Below are positions 29,065-30,913 of a stretch of 64,000 bases of DNA, piece after piece; the first letter of the stretch is position 1, and every line of letters starts with the position of its first letter. The notes under the pieces are model-generated. The model did not search any database. It saw nothing but the letters and a program-made list of their open reading frames with translations, and had not been told where the DNA came from. The position numbers and the translations under genes are program-made. Source of the DNA: Bradyrhizobium sp. BTAi1 (GTDB lineage Bacteria > Pseudomonadota > Alphaproteobacteria > Rhizobiales > Xanthobacteraceae); NCBI RefSeq assembly GCF_000015165.1, contig NC_009485.1, positions 1,466,001-1,530,000 of the forward strand, read 5' to 3'.

Positions 29065-29407
29065 TGCGTTCGACATCTACGACAAAGCTGATGGCTGTAA
29101 AGAGATATCGCTCCAATGTGCTTGGCCTTCGTCTTGAACAGGATGCTGGAGGGCCGCGATGGTGCGCCCGTCCGTGCGTCCATCGCGGCAGAACCTGCCG
29201 CATGTCGCCCGTAAGCGCCGGCGCCTCATCGTAGGGCGGGTCTACGTGCAACGGAGCAATGCAATCAAAGGCAGTAAAATAGAGGCGTCTCTAGTACGTG
29301 CAATCCCGCCATGTATGCGGCTTTTTTGCATCGGTTACGACGAAAAATGAATATCTTTTGGCAAGCACCTCGACACTTGCCAAGACCGGTGTTCTGCTGG
29401 TTCCCAA
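29065..29407. other. Region left of the IS630 element, no supported gene
   Basis: About 340 bases between the XRE gene and the IS. Open frames exist on both strands but none shows a family match or coding bias. It may be decayed mobile DNA. Confidence 0.4.
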
Positions 29408-30568
29408 CTAGTACCTCTGCACAGAGGTTTTGACTCTTTGTTTTTTCGTCGGTTTAGCCGGGACTTTTGGATAGGCGCGGCCGAGTTTGGCCCTGGCCTT
29501 CTCGGTCGTAAACATCCAGTTGATTCTGGCGCGCTCGGCGTTGCGGCGTTTTTCCCAGGCTGCGGTCTCTCTGACGAGACGAGCATGGCTGTCGATCCGT
29601 CGGTCGAGGCACTGCTGCGAGAGGACGCCGATTTCGATCTCGACCATGTTGAGCCAGCTGGCGTGCTTTGGCGTGTGATGGAATTCGAGACGGCGGAGCA
29701 GGCGGCGAGCTTCGTCGGGCGGGAATGCCTGATAGAGTGCGCCGGCCTTGTGGGTCGACAGATTGTCGAGCACAACGCGAATGCGTTCGGCTTTGGGATA
29801 GTGCACGTCGACAAGCTCGCGCATGCATTCGGCAAAGTCCTTCGCGGTGCGTCGTTCCGTCACCTTCACCTTGCGCCAGGGCCGGTTCACGTCAATGAGC
29901 ACGAACAGGTTGGCCGTGCCGTTGCGTCGGTACTCGTAATCGTAACGCTCGATCCGGCCCGGCTTGGCGGGAATCGGTTGACGGGTCTCGCCGATGAGTT
30001 GGACCGGGCTCTCGTCGAAGCAGACCACAGGCCGCTGCGGATCGGCCGCTTCGGCATAGAGATCGAGCACATCCTCCATCTGCGCGACATACTCCGCATC
30101 GACCTTTGGGATGCACCACATGCTTTTGCGCCATGGCTTGATGTGGTTTTCGGCCAGGCGCCGCCGCACCGTTTCTCGCGACAGTCCCTCGTGAGACGTC
30201 AATCTGACCATCTCGTCGGCCAGAAGCTCCAGCGTCCAGCGCGCACGGCCTGTCGGAGGGCTTGCACAGGCGGTGGCCACCAGCAGCGCCTCCTCTTTCT
30301 CCGTGAGCTTGCGTTCCGCCCCGCGACGAGGCTCTTCGCTCAAGGCCGCGGTCAGATTCCCTTCGATAAAGCGTCGTCGGGTCCGATAGACCGTCGAGGC
30401 GCCGATACCCACGCTGGTGGCGATGTCGTCGTCGCTCATCCCTGCATCCGCTGCCAGCAGGATCTGCGCGCGCTTGAACTTGCGCGCCGCCAGCGGGCCG
30501 CCCTGCAGCAGCAATCTGAGTTCCGCCCGCTCGTCCCTGGTCAGCTTGACGTGATATCGTACATTCAT
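29408..30568 (-). CDS. IS630-family transposase
   Basis: A 386-residue transposase. The N-terminal HTH (ARKFKRAQILLAADAGMSDDDIATSVGIGASTVYRTRRRFIEGNLTAAL) is followed by a winged helix and a DDE catalytic domain: D in VVCFDESPVQLI, D in RIRVVLDNLSTHKA, E in ASWLNMVEIEIGVLSQQ. I chose the ATG at 30568 because GGAGG lies five bases upstream. The frame ends inside the terminal repeat with VKTSVQRY and a TAG stop completed by the TA target duplication and its flanking base. No frameshift is present. Confidence 0.92.
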   Translation of the reverse strand: MNVRYHVKLTRDERAELRLLLQGGPLAARKFKRAQILLAADAGMSDDDIATSVGIGASTVYRTRRRFIEGNLTAALSEEPRRGAERKLTEKEEALLVATACASPPTGRARWTLELLADEMVRLTSHEGLSRETVRRRLAENHIKPWRKSMWCIPKVDAEYVAQMEDVLDLYAEAADPQRPVVCFDESPVQLIGETRQPIPAKPGRIERYDYEYRRNGTANLFVLIDVNRPWRKVKVTERRTAKDFAECMRELVDVHYPKAERIRVVLDNLSTHKAGALYQAFPPDEARRLLRRLEFHHTPKHASWLNMVEIEIGVLSQQCLDRRIDSHARLVRETAAWEKRRNAERARINWMFTTEKARAKLGRAYPKVPAKPTKKQRVKTSVQRY

Positions 30569-30902
30569 CGTGGCCTCCATCGTGGAGGCCGAGGTGAATC
30601 TGCTGATGAATCAAATGTCTGGCAAAGCTGCGCCCCGCTTCACCGCCAAGCAGGGCCAATATCTGGCGTTCATCGATGCCTATATCCGTGTCAATCGGCT
30701 GCCGCCGGCCGAACGCGACATTCAACGGTTTTTCGGCGTCACGCCGCCGACCGTGCACCAGATGATCCTCACCCTCGAGCGCAACGGCTTCATTCGCAGA
30801 ACGCCAGGCGCCTCACGCAGCATCGAGATCGTCGTGCCACCCGAAGACCTCCCCGTTCTGCAAGCTACAGATCAATCCGTCAAAACCTCTGTGCAGAGGT
30901 AC
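29411..30902. mobile_element. Complete IS630-family insertion sequence
   Basis: Perfect terminal inverted repeats of 24 bases at 29411-29434 and 30879-30902 bound the element. Each begins GTACCTCTGCACAGAGGT, which contains a 16-base perfect palindrome (ACCTCTGCACAGAGGT). It is flanked by TA at 29409-29410 and 30903-30904, the IS630 target duplication, within a CTAG context. It carries a transposase on the minus strand and a divergent LexA-like passenger gene on the plus strand. Both genes run outward into the repeats. All parts look intact, so recent activity is likely. Confidence 0.93.
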
Positions 30903-30905
30903 TAG
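30606..30905 (+). CDS. LexA-like HTH passenger protein of the IS
   Basis: 99 residues: TAKQGQYLAFIDAYIRVNRLPPAERDIQRFFGVTPPTVHQMILTLERNGFIRRTPGASRSIEIVVPPEDLPVL is the LexA/MarR-type winged helix, without the LexA protease domain. The ATG at 30606 is preceded by GAGGTG. It is divergent from the transposase inside the IS and its own C-terminus is encoded by the right terminal repeat (VKTSVQRY-stop), identical to the transposase C-terminus. It may repress the shared promoter region. Similar small LexA-like genes are common next to IS630 transposases. Confidence 0.8.
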   Translation: MNQMSGKAAPRFTAKQGQYLAFIDAYIRVNRLPPAERDIQRFFGVTPPTVHQMILTLERNGFIRRTPGASRSIEIVVPPEDLPVLQATDQSVKTSVQRY

Positions 30906-30913
30906 GTGGGCAG

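Follow-up and report, generated by a model that had tools for sequence, protein, structure and literature searches.

A two-gene IS630-family element of Bradyrhizobium in which both divergent genes end on the CTAG target site

How does a mobile element end its genes when two of them, lying back to back, both run out across its edges? The question is raised by an IS630-family element in the window, by which we mean the whole analysed stretch of 64,000 nucleotides of Bradyrhizobium sp. BTAi1, a host with a genome of 8.5 Mb in two contigs. The element measures 1,496 bp from TA to TA (1,492 bp without the TAs) and carries a transposase gene and a divergent gene for a LexA-like protein (Table 1). 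Its inverted repeats, TAGTACCTCTGCACAGAGGTTTTGAC, are perfect over 26 bp, the TA counted. In the repeat search the match continues into the host flanks CCCAAC and GGTGGG, which are also nearly complementary, so that the pair reaches 32 nt at 97%. The target context of the window, CCCAAC-TA-GGTGGG (29403-29408 plus 30905-30910), is itself nearly palindromic.

The transposase matches the IS630 profile NF033545 of NCBIfam well above its cut-off of 100 bits and contains the DDE_3 domain (PF13358). It starts at the ATG at 30568 or at an upstream in-frame ATG at 30580. For the LexA-like gene the start is the GTG at 30594 or the ATG at 30605, and the frame is open from the GTG at 30570. A sequence-only reading had proposed that both genes enter the inverted repeats in the same phase and end with the same peptide, and the open reading frames 29408-30580 and 30570-30905 confirm it: each closes with VKTSVQRY and TAG. 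As that reading also held, the TAG consists of the flanking TA (29409-29410 and 30903-30904) and one further base of host DNA, at 29408 (C on the plus strand, hence G on that of the transposase gene) and at 30905 (G). The shared tail follows from the inverted repeats as soon as the two genes have a common reading phase.

Table 1. Features of the IS630-family element, in window positions.
Feature	Position	Strand	Basis
Whole IS630-family element	29409..30904	.	inverted repeats; relatives with alike ends and similar length
Left inverted repeat, with flanking TA	29409..29434	+	sequence, repeat search
Right inverted repeat, with flanking TA	30879..30904	-	sequence, repeat search
IS630 transposase	29408..30568 (ORF 29408-30580)	-	NF033545, 250.6 bits; DDE_3 and HTH domains
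Transposase stop codon TAG (target TA + host base)	29410-29408	-	sequence, ORF list
Divergent start region, dyad GGCCTCCA-TCG-TGGAGGCC	30572..30590	.	sequence; possible operator
LexA-like winged-helix DNA-binding protein	30594..30905	+	PF01726; LexA DNA-binding-domain fold; purifying selection
LexA-like stop codon TAG (target TA + host base)	30903..30905	+	sequence, ORF list

Relatives were drawn from three sources: 197 genomes, of which 70 gave a match (the own genome included); a species-genome collection searched with the LexA-like protein, which provided 80 loci of 447 relatives; and plasmids, where 146 records match, 59 cover 80% of the query and twelve were fetched. Element ends were placed by similarity to seed ends from which the outer host base had been excluded; 24 ends with an end score below 20 were rejected, and ends without flank were skipped. 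The TA is intact at 125 of the 132 distinct ends with 12 bases of flank, the window's own two included, and all 125 have a G outside it and thus read CTAG, the two ends of one insertion not being independent. The twelve plasmid elements, counted apart, have the G at 24 of 24 ends, and so do all 49 further ends that lie at contig breaks with less than 12 bases of flank. The seven remaining ends (L023R, L024R, L025L, L025R, L039L, L049L and L050R) are deleted, mutated or misplaced. In the window as a whole, CTAG surrounds 34 of 972 TA dinucleotides, and the pooled flanks of the relatives hold no comparable preference beyond the outer G. Tenzen and Ohtsubo reportedly found in 1991 that IS630 prefers TA within CTAG; the present group shares this preference, which the sequence-only reading had cited as established for the family. 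Judged from natural copies, insertion of the element by its transposase at the TA inside CTAG is shown by the flanks of the relatives.

All intact sites being CTAG, a 2-bp duplication of TA and a 4-bp duplication of CTAG would give identical sequence. In L055, the element interrupts traA, and its joined flanks can be aligned gap-free over the junction with an uninterrupted traA homologue of Mesorhizobium sp. WSM1497. This homologue has CAGA where the joined flanks read CTAG, so it shows the length rather than the very site before insertion. Among plasmid records, the joined flanks of L055 gave none covering 80% of the query, the traA homologue covering 79% in one piece, and those of L014 none at 80% either. 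No empty version of the window's insertion site was found with joined flanks in 118 genomes (own and related): the query returned its two halves in the own genome and two short partial matches elsewhere. L025 (G108:C1) lacks the same outer bases at both ends and is bordered by AA left and right; it looks as though a copy with trimmed ends had gone into AA rather than CTAG.

Beside the TAs, the first base of the element is G and its last is C. Each junction therefore reads CTAG outward, which gives a TAG in one phase out of three. This is the phase in which both genes arrive at the junction in the window element and its closest relatives, and so neither needs a stop codon of its own. The genes of other lineages run into the repeat in another phase and stop at a TAA or TGA within it, or stop before reaching it. 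We surveyed the stops in 98 complete elements of the 121 loci, reduced to 36 non-redundant representatives at 95% identity; several of these have split transposases, for which the C-terminal frame alone was read. Twelve representatives close the LexA-like frame with the junction TAG; in 13 the stop falls within the repeat, in 10 ahead of it and in one outside the element. For the transposase the corresponding numbers are 6, 25, 4 and 1. Junction stops for both genes occur in five of the 36: the window element, L006, L037, L046 and L129. All but L129 belong to one clade, which also contains L009; in L009 a TAG closes the LexA-like frame where the window element has the codon CAG and L046 has TCG. 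L129 comes from Neorhizobium petrolearium; it lies far from this clade in the tree, and its ends are different. Among loci not counted in the 36, the LexA-like frame stops at the junction in L133, L137, L138, L140 and L142, at a TGA inside the repeat in L135 and earlier in L136; in L134, where it is out of phase, it continues for 268 nt past the junction.

The proposal that CTAG insertion supplies both stop codons thus stands for the window element and is not supported as a general design, the double junction state being limited to these five representatives. The sequence-only reading had named two things that would speak against it, copies at a TA without an outer G and genes that stop inside the element. 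The first occurs at none of the 125 intact ends and none of the 24 plasmid ends; the second is common, 21 of the 36 transposase frames stopping at one and the same TAA, 19 bases short of the junction. The share of junction stops is close to or below one phase in three; phase alone would produce about the third reached by the LexA-like gene, although the lineages are not independent. As far as comparison of natural copies can tell, CTAG targeting together with reading phase explains which elements have junction stops.

It was also foreseen that a changed flank would extend a protein, and one pair of copies bears this out. In Bradyrhizobium nitroreducens TSA1, L038 and L039 differ within their 1,496 bases at a single position, the first, where the T of the left flanking TA is an A in L039; with this single change the L039 transposase gains six residues, LIGAFV, before a host stop. 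Such an effect would be expected if the target-supplied stops were selected, the junction acting as a check on insertion: stop codons would be saved, and insertion outside CTAG would be penalised through a host-encoded tail on the transposase or the repressor. The occurrence of the double junction state in two separate places of the tree, with L129 as the distant case, means that some advantage may exist, and the fact that frames leave the element in just 2 of 72 cases (the transposase of L014 and the apparently frameshifted LexA-like frame of L013) suggests that it is of some importance for frames to end no later than the edge. We nevertheless hold selection for borrowed stops to be quite unlikely: junction stops are a minority for either gene, elements with internal stops obey the same CTAG rule, and the elements of M. 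sophorae and B. neotropicale stop their transposase inside the repeat, yet are present at several loci per genome. A stronger form, in which strict targeting of CTAG and the pair of borrowed stops make up a built-in integrity check that gives both proteins their proper length only if the element is correctly placed, appears very unlikely to us. If it were true, misplaced or damaged copies would make a host-tailed transposase or repressor and fall silent.

The common tail could also have a function of its own, the same peptide mediating contact between the transposase and the LexA-like protein, or contact with the element ends. It is identical on both proteins in the window element and in L046, and nearly so in L129 (VIISETSH and VIISGTSH). 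Any two genes that cross an inverted repeat in one phase share a tail automatically, though, and 30 of the 36 representative transposase frames end elsewhere than at the junction. Residues 92-103 of the LexA-like protein are, besides, modelled at very low confidence. A functional tail therefore seems extremely improbable, and we retain phase at a CTAG junction as the explanation of the shared ending.

A single gene is the usual layout of IS630 elements, if not an obligatory one; here it is joined by a second, divergent gene. The LexA-like protein has at most 111 residues, and its LexA_DNA_bind domain (PF01726) scores 41.7 bits against a cut-off of 23.7; residues 24-83 and 24-89 of the 111 are covered by the two LexA profiles. 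In the predicted structure (mean pLDDT 73.4, with both tails below 50), the best matches are the DNA-binding domains of LexA in 3k2z, 3jso and 1lea (Foldseek, 3k2z_B, E 5.9e-5). Profile and structure searches agree on this N-terminal winged-helix DNA-binding domain of LexA. No Pfam or NCBIfam match at E 0.001 was found for a C-terminal S24 self-cleaving protease domain; lacking it, and with so few residues, the protein is not an SOS-type LexA, which has such a domain. Among the representatives, 34 of the 36 were compared for dN/dS, L013 and L022 being dropped for their broken LexA-like frames. Of 561 pairs, 257 have a dS of 0.1-1.2, and their median dN/dS is 0.30; 22 of the 25 closest pairs in this dS range lie at 0.07-0.30. 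Of the two alignments made of the available sequences (A1 with 23, A2 with 9), 21 columns are invariant among the 23. By its pattern of substitutions, the LexA-like gene is under purifying selection, as a conserved accessory gene.

The pairing of the two genes extends beyond the window: of the 80 loci retrieved with the LexA-like protein as sole query, 78 also have a divergent match to an IS630 transposase, 43 of the 80 coming from a single genome, that of B. neotropicale. In a class-wide sample, 7 of 337 genomes (own included) match the LexA-like protein at 1e-12, in 15 places. A transposase match lies beside three of these: L132 (own), L134 and, as a 39-residue fragment, L133. Of the remaining 12 places, 11 are at contig edges. 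Plasmid records label the gene as MarR family, helix-turn-helix, SOS repressor, transcriptional regulator or hypothetical protein.

Less than 40 bases separate the likely starts of the two genes, and their promoters would have to overlap the opposite gene. The dyad in this region consists of two back-to-back Shine-Dalgarno-like GGAGG sequences, common to both divergent genes. Its CCTC...GAGG core is kept in 27 of 32 segments, and the extended arms in few elements. The 32 are the representatives with a recognisable start motif; four without it were left out, and L011, whose motif is in a wrong upstream place, is uninformative yet counted. Against shuffles that preserve base composition and not dinucleotides, the dyad score is reached by at most 5 of 100 in just 7 of the 32 elements. 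A longer operator dyad kept across the group is not supported by these data: the core is equally explained by the Shine-Dalgarno pair, and with 7 of 32 passing the shuffles, we claim no operator.

Given its fold and the order of the genes, the product of the LexA-like gene is a putative repressor that probably binds the short divergent region, between the two starts, and would there shut down both genes. We regard as very likely, taken as a whole, the reading of this locus as a two-gene IS630 insertion sequence that inserts in CTAG, whose junction stops are determined by phase, and whose LexA-like accessory gene likely represses both.

The binding site of the LexA-like protein might also lie elsewhere, in a near-symmetric sequence of the repeats, from where the protein would repress transposition or help it at the ends. 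This sequence, ACCTCTGCACAGAGGT, had been taken from the window alone for a perfect 16-base palindrome. That is ruled out: two 7-base arms flank a CA centre, 14 of the 16 positions are symmetric, and the symmetry is mostly not conserved. The LexA-type DNA-binding domain of the protein would suit such a site, and in both the window element and L051 the two ends reach 14 of 16. These are the only 4 of 72 ends (36 elements) to do so, and symmetry is weak in most gene-keeping representatives, with 8 of 16 positions or fewer at 49 of the 72. Since the CCTC...GAGG core sits in the start region, in 27 of 32, we consider a binding site in the repeats unlikely, noting that this core is also the two Shine-Dalgarno sequences; repression from between the starts stays the preferred reading.

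Stop codons supplied by CTAG are already known from the IS481 family. In TnRErm46 / ISRe46 of Rhodococcus equi, the TAG of a CTAG target stops the transposase at one end (PMC6794481), as in the window element. The differences are another transposase family and an NCTAGN repeat; at the other end the TAG serves as the stop of some host genes, while the distal gene of that element has its stop, a TGA, in the left repeat. ISLxc2 / ISLxx4 of Leifsonia xyli, also IS481, have their transposase stop within a duplicated NCTAGN target (PMC2516522); the transposase family again differs from that of the window element, and the available part of the source mentions no second gene. The window's transposase scores 26.7 bits with the IS481 profile NF033577, against a cut-off of 224, and so the element works like the IS481 elements with target stops but is no member of their family. 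IS630 and ISY100, of the IS630-Tc1-mariner family, share with the window element the transposase family; duplication of TA is established for that family (PMC2170065), and the window element has a TA on both sides. The same paper describes family members with a single transposase gene each; the window element has in addition a divergent LexA-like gene and target-supplied stops. In the open-licence literature, we found no published description of an IS630 element with a divergent LexA-type gene, nor of one with both stops from the target. As far as this literature was searched, what is new is the occurrence of such stops in IS630, in both divergent genes, and with a LexA-like partner. These natural copies show a strict target sequence becoming part of the genes of a mobile element, and where such an element has inserted can affect the C-termini annotated for its genes. 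In this IS630 subgroup, the conserved LexA-type partner may control transposition.

The two-gene subgroup is of the cut-and-paste kind and occurs in rhizobia and other bacteria, mainly Alphaproteobacteria. The genome of the window has a second copy, L002 (G000:C1:1643666-1644312), truncated to its left 647 bases; at its single surviving end a C lies outside the TA, as in the window element. A contig of Bradyrhizobium sp. BR13661 (L035) shows 0 differences from the window over 1,194 bases, from the element interior to the right end plus 200 bases of flank. Bradyrhizobium neotropicale BR 10247 has 43 loci (L069-L114), many of them near-identical copies, and contig breaks in this assembly fall on the CTAG at the element ends, which together suggests a recent expansion in this genome.
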